DNA from: Natrarchaeobius chitinivorans
GTDB taxonomy: Archaea; Halobacteriota; Halobacteria; Halobacteriales; Natrialbaceae
Reading direction: 5' to 3'
NCBI RefSeq assembly: GCF_003841505.1
Contig: NZ_REGA01000003.1
Span: 62,001 to 126,000, forward strand
DNA: 64,000 bases
Shown piece by piece: positions 2 through 48,086 of the stretch (positions within the stretch are counted from its first letter, which is position 1; every line of letters begins with the position of its first letter). Under the pieces are notes generated by a model. The model was not told the origin of the DNA, did no database searches, and saw only the letters and a program-made list of their open reading frames with translations. Made by a program: the position numbers and the translations under genes.

Positions 2-91
2 GGGCGCTCCGAGCGACTCGAGTCGATACTGGGAAGCGTCGCGAAAACGCTCGTCGAGCGGTCGAACGTCCCGGTCACGGTCGTTCGGTGA
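2..91 (+). CDS. Universal stress protein UspA family, 3' fragment
   Basis: Only the last 29 codons lie in the window. They read through the typical UspA C-terminus: LGSVAKTLVERSNVPVTVVR and stop, which corresponds to the end of the nucleotide-binding loop (GS) and the final beta strand that closes the fold. UspA proteins are small cytoplasmic dimers, many of which bind ATP, and are linked to stress survival. Four further UspA-type genes lie in this window. The 197 nt after the stop hold no convincing gene, only an imperfect direct repeat of GCTCGAGCGTGGCT at 212-225 and 274-287. Confidence 0.8.
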   Translation, partial: GRSERLESILGSVAKTLVERSNVPVTVVR

Positions 92-288
92 CCGGCGACT
101 CGTCGAGGACGACCTCGTCGTCACCACGTCGCCGAGTTATCGCCCCGAGGCACGGAGGGTCGCCTTCAGCCGGCTGCTCCTCATCGCTTCCGTCGCTCCA
201 CTGCTTCCGTCGCTCGAGCGTGGCTGTCACCGCTTCGGGTTTCGTCGCTCGAGTGTGTCCGTCACTCCGTATGGCTCGAGCGTGGCTC

Positions 289-374
289 TCATACGGTTTA
301 CTGTAAATCATTACCGGCGCACCCGCGACCCGGGCGGCGGGTGCGCCGGTAAATCGCTACAACAATCCGTATCA
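289..374. repeat. Family A palindromic element, copy A1 (abuts CapA stop codon)
   Basis: Complete copy. The ends are TCATACGGTTTACTGTA (left) and the complement of TGATACGGATTGTTGTA (right). The centre is a strong GC-rich hairpin, GGCGCACCCGC paired with GCGGGTGCGCC. The last three bases, 372-374, are the complement of TGA and serve as the stop codon of the CapA-like gene on the minus strand. It sits between two convergent genes, so a role as a bidirectional terminator is possible. Confidence 0.85.
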
Positions 375-1367
375 CTCGGTAAGCGGGAGGACGAGTGCCT
401 CGCCGTCCCGTTCGAACGACGTCCCGAACTCCTCGGAGCGTGCCCGCATTCGAGCCCGACACCACGCGGCTGCATCGGTCGACGCCTCGTGGACCGCCAC
501 GTCGAAGATTTCGACCGGTTGCAGGCGAAGTTCCGAGGGGCGTCCACCGTCCCCGACCGAGAGTTCGAACAGGAAACTTCGATCGTTCCGGAGGTCGTCG
601 TCGACGGCGTAATCGTCGACGAAGTCGCCCGTATCGTACAGGATCGGCCGTCCCTCGTACACCTCGATTCCGTGAAATACGTGGGCGCTGTGGCCGTAAA
701 CTACGTCGACACCCTGGTCGACGAGCCACCGCCCGAATCGCCCGAACGACTCGGGCGGCCGCTCGACCATGTTCGGGCCCCAGTGGAGCGATACGATCAG
801 GAGATCGGGTGATTTCGATCGAGCCCGGTCGAGTGTTTCTCGAACGGTCGTCCGCGTCCGCGCGTCCTCGACGTCGATGTCGACGTAGGCCGTTCCGGGT
901 GAACTCTCGTCGGCCGCGTACTCGGGAACGTTGTCCGTAAGCGAGACGAATCCGATGGTCCGGTCACCGACGGTCACGTGTGCCGGTTCCAGTGCCTCCT
1001 CGAGGGTGCGCCCCGCGCCGGAACGTGCGATCTCCGCCGCGTCGAGTTCGTCGAGCGTATCTGTCAGCCCGACCGTTTCGAAGTCGAACACGTGATTGTT
1101 CGCCAGCGCACAGGCGTCGACGCCGGCGGACTCGAGTGCGGGTATCGCCCACTTCGGGTTCGCTCGGAAGTGAAACGGCCGATACGTTCGACGCCAGGGT
1201 TCCCCGCGAGACGAGAGACAACACTCGAGGTTGACGAACAGGCCGTCACAGGCGCGGAGGCGATCCAGCATGGTCCCCCACACCGCCTCGGGGGATCGGC
1301 GACGGTGACGCTCGTCGACGAGCCGACCGAGCATCACGTCGCCCGTGAATCCGATCCGGTGGCTCAT
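372..1367 (-). CDS. CapA/PgsA-type metallophosphoesterase-like protein
   Basis: 331 aa. It resembles the CapA (PGA_cap) family, a calcineurin-like metallophosphoesterase fold linked in bacteria to poly-gamma-glutamate capsule. Visible motifs in order: GDVMLGR near residue 8, NLECCLS, ALANNHVFDF, SLHWGPN and YGHSAHVFHG, which together supply the usual Asp, Asn and His metal ligands. An upstream in-frame extension of 27 codons exists, but the methionine of MSHRIGFTGDVMLG directly precedes the first motif, so I start there. No signal peptide is seen, so the protein appears cytoplasmic. The archaeal substrate is unknown. The stop codon coincides with the end of repeat A1. Confidence 0.8.
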   Translation of the reverse strand: MSHRIGFTGDVMLGRLVDERHRRRSPEAVWGTMLDRLRACDGLFVNLECCLSSRGEPWRRTYRPFHFRANPKWAIPALESAGVDACALANNHVFDFETVGLTDTLDELDAAEIARSGAGRTLEEALEPAHVTVGDRTIGFVSLTDNVPEYAADESSPGTAYVDIDVEDARTRTTVRETLDRARSKSPDLLIVSLHWGPNMVERPPESFGRFGRWLVDQGVDVVYGHSAHVFHGIEVYEGRPILYDTGDFVDDYAVDDDLRNDRSFLFELSVGDGGRPSELRLQPVEIFDVAVHEASTDAAAWCRARMRARSEEFGTSFERDGEALVLPLTE

Positions 1368-40441: not shown

Positions 40442-41278
40442 ATGCGCGAGGAGGCGACGGCGTTCGTTCCGGGTCACATCACGGGCTTTTTTAGCACACA
40501 CCCCGACGAGGACCCGACGAAAGCCGGATCTCGAGGAGCGGGGGTGACGCTCACCCGCGGCGTCGAGGTGACGGTCGAACCCGAACCGACGGAGTCGGCT
40601 TCGACCGTCGTTCTCGACGGCGACGAGATCGAGATCGAACCGGTGACGACCGTTCTCGAGACGCTCGAGGCGACCGCTCGCGTCGAGGTCGACTCCGAAC
40701 TTCCATTGGGGGCAGGCTTCGGCGTCTCCGGTGCGACGGCGCTCGGGACGGCGCTTGCGGCCAACCGCGTTTTCGATTGCAAACTCTCGTCGAACGAACT
40801 CGTGACGATCTCACACGGGGCCGAAGTACGAGCCGGAACCGGGCTGGGCGACGTGGTCGCGCAGGCTCACGGTGGGGTTCCGATCCGCCTAGAGCCCGGA
40901 AGCCCGCAGGTGAACGAACTGGACGCGATTCCCGCTCGAGCGCGCGTCGAGTACGTCTCCTTCGGCGAACTCTCGACGCCGGACGTGCTCTCGGGCGATA
41001 CCGACGAGCTCAGCGCCGCCGGGACGGAAGCGCTCTCGAGAGTCGTCGAGGAACCGACGCTCCTGTCGTTCATGTACGCGTCCCGCCTTTTTGCACGCGA
41101 AGCGGGGTTGTTGACCGAGGACGTCGCGCGGGCGATCGGTGACGTCACCGACGCCGGCGGACAGGCGTCGATGGCGATGCTCGGGAATACGGTCTTCGCG
41201 CTCGGGACGGGACTCTCCGACGCCGGCTACGATCCAGACGTCTGTACGACCCATCCGGCCGGTGCGATGTTGCGGTGA
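40442..41278 (+). CDS. pok: Pantoate kinase (GHMP family)
   Basis: 278 aa. GHMP-kinase ATP motif: ELPLGAGFGVSGATALGTAL near residue 85. The start AFVPGHITGFFSTHPDEDP, with GSRGAGVTL, is the archaeal pantoate kinase signature, and GLGDVVAQAHGGVPIRLEPG follows. It phosphorylates pantoate in the archaeal CoA pathway; the product goes to phosphopantothenate synthetase, whose gene lies at 44544. In many archaea these two genes are neighbours; here a large membrane-protein gene separates them. Confidence 0.93.
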   Translation: MREEATAFVPGHITGFFSTHPDEDPTKAGSRGAGVTLTRGVEVTVEPEPTESASTVVLDGDEIEIEPVTTVLETLEATARVEVDSELPLGAGFGVSGATALGTALAANRVFDCKLSSNELVTISHGAEVRAGTGLGDVVAQAHGGVPIRLEPGSPQVNELDAIPARARVEYVSFGELSTPDVLSGDTDELSAAGTEALSRVVEEPTLLSFMYASRLFAREAGLLTEDVARAIGDVTDAGGQASMAMLGNTVFALGTGLSDAGYDPDVCTTHPAGAMLR

Positions 41279-41415: not shown

Positions 41416-41515
41416 GAAATCGTTCCGAGTGAATTCGAGGAAATCGTTCCGAGAGACGATAACTCATTTTGCGCCTGACAAAATTGTTATTTGACACGTT
41501 GACGTAAATTTATTA
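41416..41515 (+). promoter_or_regulatory. Promoter region with 14-bp direct repeats
   Basis: GAAATCGTTCCGAG occurs at 41416-41429 and 41440-41453 (period 24). TGACAAAATTGTTATTTGAC lies at 41477-41496 and TAAATTTATTA at 41505-41515, a strong TATA-like box 32 nt before the ATG at 41547. An activator or repressor binding to the direct repeats is plausible. Confidence 0.5.
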
Positions 41516-41546
41516 GTCACTGTTCTAGTTCTTCGCTACGTTTCCG

Positions 41547-44444
41547 ATGACTTCCACAACGAAGCTACACCAGGATCTGTTTCGCCTGTACGAACACTAC
41601 GTCGGCGAACCCGACTCGAAAAAGGACGTCTACGGCTACTGGCTGTTCATTCTCGGCTACCTCATCGGTGCCACGGGGGTGTTCGCCTTCGTCGTTGGCT
41701 ACGCGGGCGATACGGGTTCGTACGTCCTCATTCGGGTTTCGGGCGTCGCGGCCGCGACGGGACTGTCGCTGTGTCTGTTCGGCCTCGTCCTCATGTTGCC
41801 GGTGAGAAAACGCGGGATACAGGCGAGCGTCGTCGGCGTCGCAATCGCGCTCGTCGGCGTCGCCTCCTTCGCCGTCGTCTACCCCCACGACTGGCGGGGC
41901 CACGGTGCCGACTGGAGCGTCGAAGTGATCGCGATCTACGCGGTCGGCATCGGAATAATCGCCGGCGTTACGGCCCTCGTCCCGGTCGTCACCGGCCAGC
42001 GGGGAATGTTCGTCGAGGAAGAAGGCCAGACCGAAGATCCGCCGATTCTCACCGGCGACGCCCTCGAGGGTGCGCAGTTCGCCGTCTTTCGGGACGGGGA
42101 CGGAGACTGGCAGTGGCACGTTCTCCACCTCGAGGCGCTCGCGAAAAGTACGGACAGTGCCGTGACGCGGCCGGCGGCGACGGACGGAATCGAGCGAGTC
42201 AAATCCCAGATCAGTTCCGCGGGACTGATGGAACTGACGACGTCGGCGTTTCGCCTGTACGAGGACCGTGAAGAAAACTGGCAGTGGACGCTCGCCCGCG
42301 ACGACGGGAGCGTCATCGGTACCTGTTCGCGCGAGTTCGACCAGCGTGACGACGCCGAAGGGGCGGTAAGCCTCATCAAGGACCGCGGGCCGGGAGCCGA
42401 CGTGATCGAAATCGAGAACGCGGCGTTTACCTACACCGAAGAGCGCGATCAGTGGTACTGGCAACTCATCGACGACGAGCGCACGCCGCTTGCCTCGAGC
42501 GACGTCGGTCACCGAAGTCAGGAACGCGCCGAGGAGGCCGCCCGGACGTTCGCGGAACGGTTCGAACACGCCCGCGTGCTCGACGTCGAACACGTCGGGG
42601 CCGAACTGTACGAACGCGATGGTGGCTGGACGTGGCGTCTCGTCGACGGCGACGACGACGTCCTCGCCACCGCCACGGACGAGTTCGACGGGCGTCGCGA
42701 CGCCGAGGAGGCCGTCGAAGCGCTTCTGGCGGAACTGGAGTCTGCGTCGATCACCACCGCCGGAGAGCCGGTCCACGAACTGTACCAGACCGGCGAGGAC
42801 TGGCACTTCCGGCTCGTCGACGACTCCGAACACGTCGTCGCCCGCAGCCCGGACGGAGACGAGCGGTACGTCGACACGAAGCATCGAGCGGAACAGTTCA
42901 GCGAGGGCGCTCGCGAGGCGGACGTCGTCGAGATCGACGACGCGGAGTACGAGGTGTATCCCGTCGGCGACGACGCGGAGTTGACGTTCGACGAGGCGGA
43001 GGCGTCGGAGGCGGCGGCGGCCGGTCGGGAACTCACGGCCGACGGCGGCGTCGTGGAAGCCGATGACGACGCCGGGCCCGAGTGGAACTGGCGACTCGTC
43101 ACGGACGACCGGGAGGTCGTCGCCGCGAGCACCGAACCACACGCGGACACCGAGTCGGCGACGGCGGCCATCGATCGGGTTCGCGAGCAAGCGAGCGAAG
43201 CCGACCTCATCGAGTTCGAAAACGCGGCGTTTCAGGTGTACGAGGCCGACTCGGGCGAGTGGCGGTGGCGACTCATCGACGAGGACGGTAACGTCCTCGC
43301 CGACAGCGGCGAAGAACACACCTCGCGAAGCGAGGCTGCCGAAGCGATGATGACGCTGAAAGAGCAGGCCCCGAACGCCGAATTACTCGAGATCGAAACC
43401 GCCGCGTTCGAACTGTTCGAAAACGAGGACGACGAGTGGGGCTGGCGGCTCATCGACGAGGGAGGCAAGCTCGTCGCCGAGGATCCGGCGACACACCCGA
43501 CCCGCGAGGCGGCGAGGGCGGCGATGGACCGACTGCTCGAGCACCTGGACACGTCGGTCAGGACGATGGAACGTCCCATCTTCCAGCCGTACGCCTCCGA
43601 GGACTGGCACTGGCGATTCGTTTTACCGAACGGCGAAATCGTCGCCGTCTCCGCCGACCGCTACCCGACGCGAGACGACCTCGTCGACCAACTCGAGCCA
43701 ATCCGGGAGGCTGCAGCCACGGCGAAACGATACATGATCGGCGACGTGACGGTCCAGCTTTACGGGACCGACGACTGTCAGTTCCGGCTGCTCGATCGCG
43801 ACCGCGAGACGCTCGCCGACTCCGACGTCTCCTACGCCGACCACGAGGAGGCACGGGCGGCGGTCCAGACAATCACGGAAAACGCTGCCGACGCGCCGGT
43901 GTTCTCGATCGAAGACGCGGTCGTCCGACTCGAGAACGATTCGGAGTGGTCGTGGCGTCTCGTCGACCGGGAGCGTGAGGAAATCGCCAGCGCGGTCGAG
44001 ACGGTCCCGGACAAAGACGAACTGCTCTCGACGGTCGAAACCGTCCGCCAGCTCGCACCGCGGGCCGGCAGAGTCGACTTCGACGTCGCCTCGTTCGAAC
44101 TCATCGCCGACGAGGAGGGGCGGTGGCGCTGGCAGCTTCTCGACGAGAACGGACGAGCGATTGCGAACGGGTCGGAGACGTACGCGTCGAACGAGGCCGT
44201 CCGCGAGGCGGTCGCGGACGTCCGGGAGCTGATCGACGCGGCGAGCATCCTCGAGATCGACAGCGTCTCCTTCGAACTTCACGCGGCCGAGGACGAGGAC
44301 GGCTGGGTGTGGCACCTGATCGACGAGTACGGAACGACGATGGCAGAGAGCACGCAGGTCTACGACACCCGGACCGACGCCCGTGACGCGATGAACGGCG
44401 TCAAAGCGCACGCCCCCGAGGGCTGGATCACGTTCACTGATTGA
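41547..44444 (+). CDS. Membrane protein with 13 tandem DUF1508/YegP-like repeats
   Basis: 965 aa. Four membrane segments at about residues 31-54, 58-85, 89-111 and 124-150, then an acidic soluble region of 13 repeats of about 60 residues. Each repeat has a beta pair such as AAFQVYEADSGEWRWRLIDE DGNVLADS with a W-x-W/F core, then a helix (SRSEAAEAMMTLKEQAP). W-x-W cores are seen near residues 187, 247, 305, 357, 415, 516, 572, 632, 687, 796, 857 and 916; one repeat (TDDCQFRLLD) has lost it. DUF1508 proteins of bacteria usually have one or two copies. Function unknown. Lies between the two archaeal CoA genes. Confidence 0.85.
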   Translation: MTSTTKLHQDLFRLYEHYVGEPDSKKDVYGYWLFILGYLIGATGVFAFVVGYAGDTGSYVLIRVSGVAAATGLSLCLFGLVLMLPVRKRGIQASVVGVAIALVGVASFAVVYPHDWRGHGADWSVEVIAIYAVGIGIIAGVTALVPVVTGQRGMFVEEEGQTEDPPILTGDALEGAQFAVFRDGDGDWQWHVLHLEALAKSTDSAVTRPAATDGIERVKSQISSAGLMELTTSAFRLYEDREENWQWTLARDDGSVIGTCSREFDQRDDAEGAVSLIKDRGPGADVIEIENAAFTYTEERDQWYWQLIDDERTPLASSDVGHRSQERAEEAARTFAERFEHARVLDVEHVGAELYERDGGWTWRLVDGDDDVLATATDEFDGRRDAEEAVEALLAELESASITTAGEPVHELYQTGEDWHFRLVDDSEHVVARSPDGDERYVDTKHRAEQFSEGAREADVVEIDDAEYEVYPVGDDAELTFDEAEASEAAAAGRELTADGGVVEADDDAGPEWNWRLVTDDREVVAASTEPHADTESATAAIDRVREQASEADLIEFENAAFQVYEADSGEWRWRLIDEDGNVLADSGEEHTSRSEAAEAMMTLKEQAPNAELLEIETAAFELFENEDDEWGWRLIDEGGKLVAEDPATHPTREAARAAMDRLLEHLDTSVRTMERPIFQPYASEDWHWRFVLPNGEIVAVSADRYPTRDDLVDQLEPIREAAATAKRYMIGDVTVQLYGTDDCQFRLLDRDRETLADSDVSYADHEEARAAVQTITENAADAPVFSIEDAVVRLENDSEWSWRLVDREREEIASAVETVPDKDELLSTVETVRQLAPRAGRVDFDVASFELIADEEGRWRWQLLDENGRAIANGSETYASNEAVREAVADVRELIDAASILEIDSVSFELHAAEDEDGWVWHLIDEYGTTMAESTQVYDTRTDARDAMNGVKAHAPEGWITFTD

Positions 44445-44543: not shown

Positions 44544-45320
44544 GTGAGCGAGTACGACACCGTCTCCGCCGAGGTCGAACACGAAGAGGAGATTCCGGAG
44601 GACCACCCCAGATACGAGGACCTGCTCACCCGCCACCGGATCGAGCGCGGCGTCGAGAAGGGGATCACCCACCTCCAGGGGATGCACGCCGAGGGCCGCG
44701 GAAGCGCCTTCGATTACCTGCTCGGGGAGGAGACGATTCCGAGCGCGGTCGAAGCCGAACGCGCGGCCGCGGCGCACCTCCTGCTCGCCGACCACCCAGT
44801 TCTCTCGATCAACGGCAACGTCGCCGCGCTCGTCCCGGCGGAGATGGTCGAACTCGCCGACGTCGTCGACGCCGACCTCGAGGTCAACCTCTTCAACCGG
44901 ACGCCCGAGCGCCTCGAGGCCATCGCCGACCACCTGCGCGAACACGGTGCGGAGGACGTAAAGGGCCTCGAGGCGGACGCCCGGATCCCCCGACTCGACC
45001 ACCAGCGCGCGAAGGTCGACGCCGACGGCATCTACGACGCCGACGTCGTGGTCGTCCCGCTCGAGGACGGCGACCGAGCCGAAGCCTTAGCGGAGATGGG
45101 CAAGACCGAGATCGTCATCGATCTGAACCCGCTGTCGCGCTCGCCCCAGGTCGCCGAGGTGCCGATCGTCGACAACATCATCCGCGCGGTGCCGAATATA
45201 ACCGAGCACGCACGGGATCTGGCGGACGCAAGCGGGGAAGAACTCGAGGCAATAGTCAAGGAATTCGACCGGAAACGGGCGCTCGAGGCGGCGGAAGAGC
45301 GGATTCGAAGCGGATTATGA
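44544..45320 (+). CDS. pps: 4-phosphopantoate--beta-alanine ligase (archaeal phosphopantothenate synthetase)
   Basis: 258 aa, GTG start; CGCTTTTTATCGCC about 27 nt upstream indicates a leaderless mRNA. Family signatures: RYEDLLTRHRIERGVEKGIT near residue 24, HPVLSINGNVAALVPAEMVE, DLEVNLFNRTPERLEAIADH, VVVPLEDGDRAEALAEMGKT, VIDLNPLSRSPQVAEVPIVD. It joins 4-phosphopantoate and beta-alanine with ATP, the step after pantoate kinase. The C-terminal FDRKRALEAAEERIRSGL is repeated in diverged form 400 bp downstream, beyond an AT-rich insert. Confidence 0.93.
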   Translation: MSEYDTVSAEVEHEEEIPEDHPRYEDLLTRHRIERGVEKGITHLQGMHAEGRGSAFDYLLGEETIPSAVEAERAAAAHLLLADHPVLSINGNVAALVPAEMVELADVVDADLEVNLFNRTPERLEAIADHLREHGAEDVKGLEADARIPRLDHQRAKVDADGIYDADVVVVPLEDGDRAEALAEMGKTEIVIDLNPLSRSPQVAEVPIVDNIIRAVPNITEHARDLADASGEELEAIVKEFDRKRALEAAEERIRSGL

Positions 45321-46043: not shown

Positions 46044-48086
46044 ATGTCCGGGACCACCGCAACCCACCTCGTGTTCTTCGTGGCCGTGCTGGCCGTGTCC
46101 TCGGCGGTCGGGATAACTGTGATCGGACAGACCCACGTGGTCAGCGACGCGATCGAGGAGTACGGATCGACGTACGTCGAGGAGGTCGAGACCCAGATCG
46201 CCGTCGTCAGCGATCCGGAGAGCCCCGGGGCTATCTACGACTCACGGGACGCGAGCGACGACGTAACGATCCTGGTCAAGAACGTCGGCACCCGCTCGAT
46301 TCCCCTCGAGGGAAGCAGCGTCGACATCGTTGTCAATGGGGAGTACGTCCCCGATCCAACCGTCGAGAGCGCCAGCAGTGAATCCACGACGAACTGGCAG
46401 CCGGATTCGACCGCACGAATCACCTTCGACCGGGAACTCGAGTCGGGAACACACCGGATACTCGTCGGCGTCGCGTCGAACGAAGACGCCCTCGAGTTCG
46501 AAGTACCGAATCCCGGGGAGCCGGACGCGGTGTCCTACGAGGCCGACCCAGCCAACGAAACTGTCGACGAGGGTGAGACGATTACGTACACGGTGACGGT
46601 CGAGGACGGCTACGGCGACCCCGTCAGTGAAGGCTTCGAGGTGGAAGCCGACGCGACGGACGGGTTCGACGTCGAGATCAACGACGACGGTGCGGTGACG
46701 ACCGAAATGACCGACTCCGACGGGCGGGTCACGTTCGAGGTGACGTCCGACACGCCCCAGGACGACGTCGACGTCGTGTTCACCGAACAGATGCACGGAA
46801 ATTCGGAGACCGGCCAGGCCACCTGGGACGGTGAACAGGAAGAGGGGTCGCTCTCCGGAACCGTCACGACGGGGACGGAAGACGGCGACGACGATGACCT
46901 GGAGGGCGAAACGGTGACGATCGAGAACAGTCCGGAACGGACGACGACGATCGAGGCCGACGGGAGCTACGACTTCGATTCCGTCGAGGGCGGCGAGTAC
47001 ACGCTCTGGATCGACGCGGACGGCCACCGGTACTACGAGACGACGGTGATCGTCGACGGCCCGACGACGAAAGACGTCTCGCTTCCCGGCAACGTCGAAA
47101 ACGTCGAGACGGGGGCGAGTTACACGTCACTCGGTACTGGGGCTTTCGCCCTCGAGGACGGAGAGACACTCGAGCTCGCCGAAGCCGTCTACGACGAGTC
47201 AGACGGCGGCTCCTCGGCCGTGACCGTCACCAACTCCGACGTAACCATCCGTGCTCTCGGTGCTCGAGATGGGACGGTTCTCGACGCGGCCGGTGCCGAG
47301 ACTGGCCTGTCGATCGAGGGGGAGGACGTCTCCGTCGATGGCCTGACCGTCAAGAACGTCGCCCCGTCCGGAACCGGGGTTCACCTCGCGTCCGCTCGCG
47401 GTTCGTCCCTCGCGAATCTCGAGGTCGACGACGCGGGGATCGGCGTCGACGTAGACGCCTCGAACGAGGTCGCGATCGAGGACCTCGAGGCGAGCGGGAA
47501 CGACGACGCCGGCGTCCGCGTCGGGGACAGCGACGAGGTCGAACTCGAGTACGTTCACCTCTCCGGTAACGGAGACGGAATCCGGGTCACGGAGGGCGGC
47601 CAGTTTACGGTCACGTACGCAACCGTCACCGACAGCGACGGAGACGGATTGAACGTCTCCGACAGCGACGGACTCACGGTCAGATCCAGTAGCTTCCTCA
47701 GAAATGAGGACAACGGAGTCTACATTCGGGACAGCAACCGCGTCACGGTCGAAAACAGCGAAATGCGTGAAAGTGGCCGGGACGGGGTTCTCGTCCAGGC
47801 CGACGAGAGCGATATCAGCCTCGACGAAGGACACTTCCAGGTGTCGTCCAACAACATCGAAGACAACGACGGATACGGAATGTGGGCCGAAGACGGAGAC
47901 ACACCCGTCGACAACGACGAACTCGGGGACGGGACGATCGACCTCGAGGCTGGAAAGCTCGGGGCCGGGTCCAACTGGTGGGGCCACGAAGACGGGCCCC
48001 AGGCCGAGGGCGCAAACGGCGTGAGTGAGGAAACCGTCGAGTTCGAACCGTACGCGACGGATCGAATCCAGCAGGCAGGCTCGTAA
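46044..48086 (+). CDS. FlaG-like archaellum stator domain fused to Ig-like and beta-helix domains
   Basis: 680 aa. Residues 1-145 look like archaellum FlaG: membrane segment THLVFFVAVLAVSSAVGITV, then VSDAIEEYGSTYVEEVETQI, and DDVTILVKNVGTRSIPLEGS. Next come an invasin/Ig-like domain (about 157-245, ETITYTVTVEDGYGDPVSEG), a carboxypeptidase-regulatory-like domain (about 255-335, GSYDFDSVEGGEYTLWIDAD), and a right-handed parallel beta-helix of the NosD/pectate-lyase type (about 340-650) with repeated DGLTVKNV, SDGLTVRSS and NRVTVENS strands. The protein is probably anchored by its N-terminus and exposed outside. FlaG is normally a short protein in the archaellum operon; no archaellum genes are nearby. 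Confidence 0.8.
   Translation: MSGTTATHLVFFVAVLAVSSAVGITVIGQTHVVSDAIEEYGSTYVEEVETQIAVVSDPESPGAIYDSRDASDDVTILVKNVGTRSIPLEGSSVDIVVNGEYVPDPTVESASSESTTNWQPDSTARITFDRELESGTHRILVGVASNEDALEFEVPNPGEPDAVSYEADPANETVDEGETITYTVTVEDGYGDPVSEGFEVEADATDGFDVEINDDGAVTTEMTDSDGRVTFEVTSDTPQDDVDVVFTEQMHGNSETGQATWDGEQEEGSLSGTVTTGTEDGDDDDLEGETVTIENSPERTTTIEADGSYDFDSVEGGEYTLWIDADGHRYYETTVIVDGPTTKDVSLPGNVENVETGASYTSLGTGAFALEDGETLELAEAVYDESDGGSSAVTVTNSDVTIRALGARDGTVLDAAGAETGLSIEGEDVSVDGLTVKNVAPSGTGVHLASARGSSLANLEVDDAGIGVDVDASNEVAIEDLEASGNDDAGVRVGDSDEVELEYVHLSGNGDGIRVTEGGQFTVTYATVTDSDGDGLNVSDSDGLTVRSSSFLRNEDNGVYIRDSNRVTVENSEMRESGRDGVLVQADESDISLDEGHFQVSSNNIEDNDGYGMWAEDGDTPVDNDELGDGTIDLEAGKLGAGSNWWGHEDGPQAEGANGVSEETVEFEPYATDRIQQAGS

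Follow-up and report, generated by a model that had tools for sequence, protein, structure and literature searches.

The window, a 64,000-nucleotide stretch of the haloarchaeal genome (4.57 Mb) of Natrarchaeobius chitinivorans, encodes on its forward strand a 965-residue protein that lies between two genes of CoA biosynthesis (Table 1). The sequence-only reading had described this protein as 13 DUF1508 repeats on a four-TM anchor, and in this Pfam, NCBIfam, an iterated repeat HMM and the predicted models all agree. The membrane domain belongs to DUF7139 (PF23600), scoring 144.9 bits (cut-off 30) over four hydrophobic peaks (residues 33-51, 66-84, 93-111 and 127-145). The rest of the chain belongs to DUF1508 (PF07411), which scores 252.3 bits over nine stretches (cut-off 22), the family to which the profile searches assign the repeats. 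The NCBIfam HVO_2922 model matches in 13 stretches and the iterated repeat HMM likewise delimits 13 repeats (R1 to R13), with R6 interrupted at about residues 476-508 by a disordered acidic insert, absent from several orthologs. A chance origin is excluded by E values of 1e-76 to 1e-85 and by the protein's conservation in about 100 of the 391 genomes of the class. The gene probably has its own promoter: a TATA-like TTTATTA would yield a near-leaderless transcript, and its TTATT core is invariant in all 10 aligned upstream regions, drawn from several genera. The same alignment contains a GTTCTAGTTAT-like stretch between the TATA-like element and the ATG (within 41509-41546), also conserved across genera, which may mark the transcription start or serve in regulation.

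Table 1. Features at the array locus (window positions; residues refer to the 965-residue protein).
Feature	Position	Strand	Residues	Basis and remarks
Pantoate kinase (GHMP kinase), upstream neighbour	40442..41278	+		Pfam, NCBIfam
TATA-like element TTTATTA	41509..41515	+		About 32 nt 5' of the ATG; near-leaderless transcript
ORF with DUF7139 membrane domain and 13 DUF1508 repeats	41547..44444	+	965 aa	ATG start; Pfam, NCBIfam, repeat HMM, model
DUF7139 four-TM anchor	41574..42005	+	10-153	Pfam, hydrophobic peaks, model; N-in/C-in by loop charges
R1	42066..42227	+	174-227	Repeat HMM
R2, predicted partner R12	42240..42404	+	232-286	Repeat HMM, superposition
R3	42411..42578	+	289-344	Repeat HMM
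R4	42588..42752	+	348-402	Repeat HMM
R5, predicted partner R9	42768..42926	+	408-460	Repeat HMM, superposition
R6	42933..43208	+	463-554	Repeat HMM, model
R7, central repeat, predicted unpaired tip	43215..43385	+	557-613	Most conserved, most HVO_2922-like
R8	43392..43550	+	616-668	Repeat HMM
R9, predicted partner R5	43566..43724	+	674-726	Repeat HMM, superposition
R10	43737..43901	+	731-785	Repeat HMM
R11	43908..44069	+	788-841	Repeat HMM
R12, predicted partner R2	44079..44249	+	845-901	Repeat HMM, superposition
R13	44256..44429	+	904-961	Repeat HMM
Phosphopantothenate/pantothenate synthetase (4-phosphopantoate--beta-alanine ligase), downstream neighbour	44544..45320	+		Pfam, NCBIfam

The copy number of tandem-repeat proteins usually varies, but that of this array is frozen across several families of the archaeal class: the survey among haloarchaea that the earlier reading called for gave exactly 13 repeats in all 150 intact orthologous sequences (iterated repeat HMM; 115 distinct arrays, identity down to about 35%), a set in which some species occur twice via two collections and from which truncated or frame-disrupted draft sequences and a single paralog, the source of lower counts in earlier subsets, are excluded. 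By alignment, 102 of the 391 class genomes contain a sequence closely related to the whole array, mostly in the window's own family, Natrialbaceae, with a patchy distribution elsewhere; paralogs within this family carry 13 repeats in 12 of 13 cases. These paralogs (L251-L263 and L170) have one or two hydrophobic segments rather than the four-TM anchor, and L170, where the context was checked, is not adjoined by CoA genes. When the repeats of 12 diverse sequences are compared, 1195 of the 1716 best matches join repeats at the same position (100% for R7). Each repeat therefore has its own counterpart in other families, which marks the array as old, with individuated units, rather than recently expanded. 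Both the fixed count and the collinearity of the repeats across families are well supported.

The exact centre of the array is occupied by a repeat with a singular status, which is equally well supported. R7 contains 19 columns of at least 98% identity, followed by R13 (12), R2 (11) and R8 (10), and an ADSG loop, as in HVO_2922, is found in R7 of 105 of the 115 arrays and at most once in each other repeat. Among solved structures, the sequence is nearest to the single-unit proteins HVO_2922 (6q2z), NMB1088 (3bid) and Atu0232 (2k7i), each of which matches best at R7, a repeat about 37% identical to the HVO_2922 family (NF041908), on which it superposes alone. Both share the beta-beta-beta-alpha unit of DUF1508, but the array protein has 13 such units per chain and a membrane anchor. 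It also falls outside the HVO_2922 equivalog, which comprises short single-unit proteins: its best single repeat scores 57.7 bits against a 90-bit cut-off, and the 281 bits of the whole protein are a sum over 13 stretches.

The earlier reading had left the side of the membrane undecided and suggested a scaffold, which may hold, or a cell-surface binding array. The loop charges argue against the surface: K+R residues in 36 orthologs average 3.3 (N-terminal segment), 0.17 (TM1-TM2 loop), 2.5 (TM2-TM3 loop, where D+E averages 0.03), 0.75 (TM3-TM4 loop) and 1.5 (just after TM4), and because the positive charge lies on the N-terminus, the TM2-TM3 loop and the segment after TM4, the anchor is predicted to be N-in/C-in, making a cytoplasmic array well supported. 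An adhesin-like surface protein would account for a membrane domain, many repeats and strong acidity, but we consider it scarcely credible: the positive-inside pattern places the repeats in the cytoplasm, their number is invariant and they are not homogenised, unlike the extracellular repeats of surface adhesins, whose number varies among relatives, and an array acidity of 24.5% D+E is no argument for a special surface, being close to that of cytoplasmic proteins of the same organism (22.9% in the neighbouring synthetase, 22.2% in AspRS). The genomic neighbours suggest another role, a CoA-specific scaffold or regulator keeping pantoate kinase and the ligase together. Both genes flank the array, pantoate kinase upstream and the ligase downstream and each within 5 kb, at 33 of the 56 array loci of a genome scan, in several families. 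The earlier view that the array sits between two genes that are commonly neighbours is also supported: in 18 of 24 genomes selected for showing no close array in a first search (one, G182, has a paralog elsewhere), the two lie directly side by side, about 40-210 nt apart. Since such genomes keep both genes adjacent, either the array was inserted into an old CoA pair or it has been lost from one. A CoA-specific scaffold nonetheless seems very improbable. The strict genomic link expected of a component of a CoA biosynthesis complex is missing in both directions: Halosimplex, Halomarina and Haloferax marinum have arrays with neither CoA gene close by, and the CoA genes occur without arrays. Moreover, the array gene has a conserved promoter element of its own. 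Where arrays stand outside the CoA context, their neighbours (by eye, fructose-bisphosphate aldolase, HisF and others) are not constant, and no functional partner emerged from them. The observed link to CoA synthesis is one of genomic position. Further downstream, a 680-residue ORF (46044-48086, + strand) resembles, on inspection by eye, a secreted or surface protein whose repeats recall a beta-helix.

How the repeats may be arranged is suggested by predicted models, which contain the repeated fold anticipated by the earlier reading. The full-protein AlphaFold2 model (36 sequences; mean pLDDT 83.6, pTM 0.56) consists of four membrane helices and regular beta-beta-beta-alpha units. YegP (2k8e) superposes on it with Z 14.8 over 115 residues (rmsd 3.1, model range 229..908) and SO3888 (2k49) with Z 14.8 over 114 residues (rmsd 2.2, model range 232..930), ranges that would run from R2 into R12 or the start of R13, the end at 930 fitting an R2:R12 pair inexactly. 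A model of the R5-R9 fragment (46 sequences; pLDDT 88.9, pTM 0.81) gives Z 14.7 over 106 residues for 2k8e (rmsd 2.2, range 2..327) and Z 14.5 over 104 residues for 2k49 (rmsd 1.9, range 4..327), and from these ranges R5 is predicted to pair with R9 in the fragment; the single-unit structures 6q2z, 3bid and 2k7i superpose on R7 only. The DUF1508/YegP-like fold and its two-unit pseudo-dimer are thus found on the predicted models, with Z 14.5-14.8 over 104-115 residues at rmsd 1.9-3.1. By comparison, Foldseek alignments to YegP and SO3888 span about 118 columns of the full model at 13.6-13.9 Å rmsd, and 118-column fits to the fragment are at 13.8 Å; the TM score of the YegP fits, about 0.42, is one repeat's worth. 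Matches of the models to reverse transcriptase, FERM and PH-like folds (Foldseek, VIA) reach a Z of only about 5-6 and were taken to reflect widespread arrangements; a cyanobacterial structure, 7b5h, matches with Z of about 8. The pairs in both models obey i+j = 14, inexactly for the end of R2:R12, a pairing read solely from the first and last aligned residues of the superpositions; moreover, the R5-R9 fragment is symmetric about R7, and a predictor bias to fold repeats in half would look identical. Both models assign R7 a lower pLDDT than any other repeat, which suits a unit whose partner is missing; R5 and R9 score 93 or more. Mirror pairing of the repeats is, in this sense, a proposal of the models.

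The i+j = 14 expectation was set before covariation between repeats was computed. In APC-corrected mutual information over the 115 arrays, 17 of the 50 top pairs fall at i+j = 14 or 15 (7.7 expected, p 0.0005), as do 178 of the top 800 (123 expected, p 0.0005), with significance taken from repeat-label permutation (p range 0.0005-0.012); neighbouring repeats show no enrichment in the same analysis. The signal mostly holds when paralogs are added and in the near and far clades, except in the far clade's top 100, and its significance is lost when the blocks 1:12, 1:13 and 2:13 are removed (p 0.34-0.58), at an Neff of about 49-60 for the alignments. Mean-field DCA (Neff 60) is noisy, and only its larger top sets (400 and 800, p about 0.002) are clearly enriched in pairs with i+j = 14 or 15; position-pooled contact maps give no clear excess over random matchings (top-10 mean 4.2 vs 3.7 +/- 0.3). 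Coevolution therefore lends weak backing to mirror pairing, mainly by suggesting that the two ends of the array meet.

An odd repeat number is also seen in a haloarchaeal sister family, represented by L121-L123 and related ORFs about 500-680 residues long, which combines DUF7139 with five DUF1508 repeats. Five repeats are present in all 8 genomes seen (L121:3977-5476, L122, L123 and ORFs in G324:C4, G050:C1, G016:C22, G003:C1 and G136:C1), and the DUF7139 anchor was seen in L121-L123, G003 and G016. Anchor and repeat family are those of the 13-repeat array, but each repeat is closer to the free-standing consensus and a linker separates R1.

We hypothesize that the protein is held in the membrane by its four-helix DUF7139 domain, with N- and C-terminus both on the cytoplasmic side, where the 13 beta-beta-beta-alpha repeats would not pair with their neighbours. 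Instead, the array would double back, bringing repeat i against repeat 14-i (1:13, 2:12 ... 6:8) as intertwined pseudo-dimers of the YegP type; the six units so formed would make up a two-stranded rod standing out from the membrane. R7 would remain unpaired at the turn, and because it keeps a free-standing, HVO_2922-type sequence and related single-unit proteins reportedly dimerise (work on HVO_2922), the tip would most likely bind a second R7, which would link two molecules, or else some other partner. No stand-alone HVO_2922 protein was found in this genome, so such a protein is not the general partner of R7 here. From this arrangement we infer dimerisation at the R7 tip and a role of the protein as a membrane-anchored cytoplasmic tether or scaffold. 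For the whole proposal, a membrane-tethered cytoplasmic hairpin rod with a dimerising or binding tip, we consider the chances to be even. A broader version, to which we hold rather more tentatively, is that of a palindromic repeat protein, with a locked odd number of repeats (6+1+6 here, 2+1+2 in the sister family), dimerisation between mirror partners and a near-ancestral central unit acting as homotypic coupler at the tip of the rod. Mirror pairing would explain both the fixed number of 13 and the special middle repeat, and the hairpin, if true, would represent an uncommon route from dimerising units to a rod.

The same contacts could arise between molecules. Two chains running antiparallel over their full length, each R_i facing R_(14-i) of the other chain and R7 facing R7 at the centre, would form a rod lying flat along the membrane and anchored at both ends, the single-chain hairpin being a stand-in made by the predictor. 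This arrangement predicts the i+j = 14 contacts, the odd number and the central conservation equally well, and it even provides R7 with a partner. We nevertheless regard it as unlikely, given that AlphaFold closes the hairpin within one chain (pTM 0.81 for R5-R9) and that the two anchors would have to sit one rod length apart. Two-repeat YegP-type proteins form their pair from adjacent repeats, as 2k8e and 2k49 illustrate, so the 13 repeats could also be six adjacent pairs plus a spare one, or 13 independent units on a string, with the number 13 a matter of history. The array shares the two-unit intertwined arrangement with YegP and SO3888 (UPF0339), but in the predicted models the partners appear to be i and 14-i rather than adjacent repeats: the 118-column Foldseek fits are near 13.8 Å, whereas the non-adjacent fits reach 1.9-2.2 Å. 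Neighbouring repeats also lack covariation enrichment. We hold this tandem reading, with adjacent pairs or independent units, to be unlikely.

In the papers found by literature searches for DUF7139, DUF1508, HVO_2922 and YegP, there is no measured function for any DUF1508 or DUF7139 protein and no description of DUF7139 or of such a 13-repeat array. DUF7139 gave no paper and the DUF1508 papers concern other subjects; HVO_2922 appears as a reference, in passing or as a spike-in, and YegP is mostly named in passing, with several of its hits unrelated. The array protein is a tractable handle on both families, one of which, DUF7139, is near-universal in haloarchaea. A role for the DUF1508/YegP fold would be of wider use, given that bacterial YegP is reported beside stress and immune regulators (PMC13373217).

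DUF7139 is present in 376 of the 391 class genomes and seems to be a general anchor for different cytoplasmic domains. It also occurs in ORFs of about 250-320 residues in Halobacteriota outside the haloarchaea (G394, G395, G412, G461, G486 and others), so the domain is probably older than the arrays. Unlike the array protein, most DUF7139 matches lie in ORFs of about 300-370 residues, and those read end in a Cys-rich region and have no DUF1508 repeats. In two short paralogs (L020 and L032, 335-357 residues), the C-terminal Cys-rich motif reads RYCGNCRHFEYVR...PYC...C.EW and is probably a zinc-binding domain.
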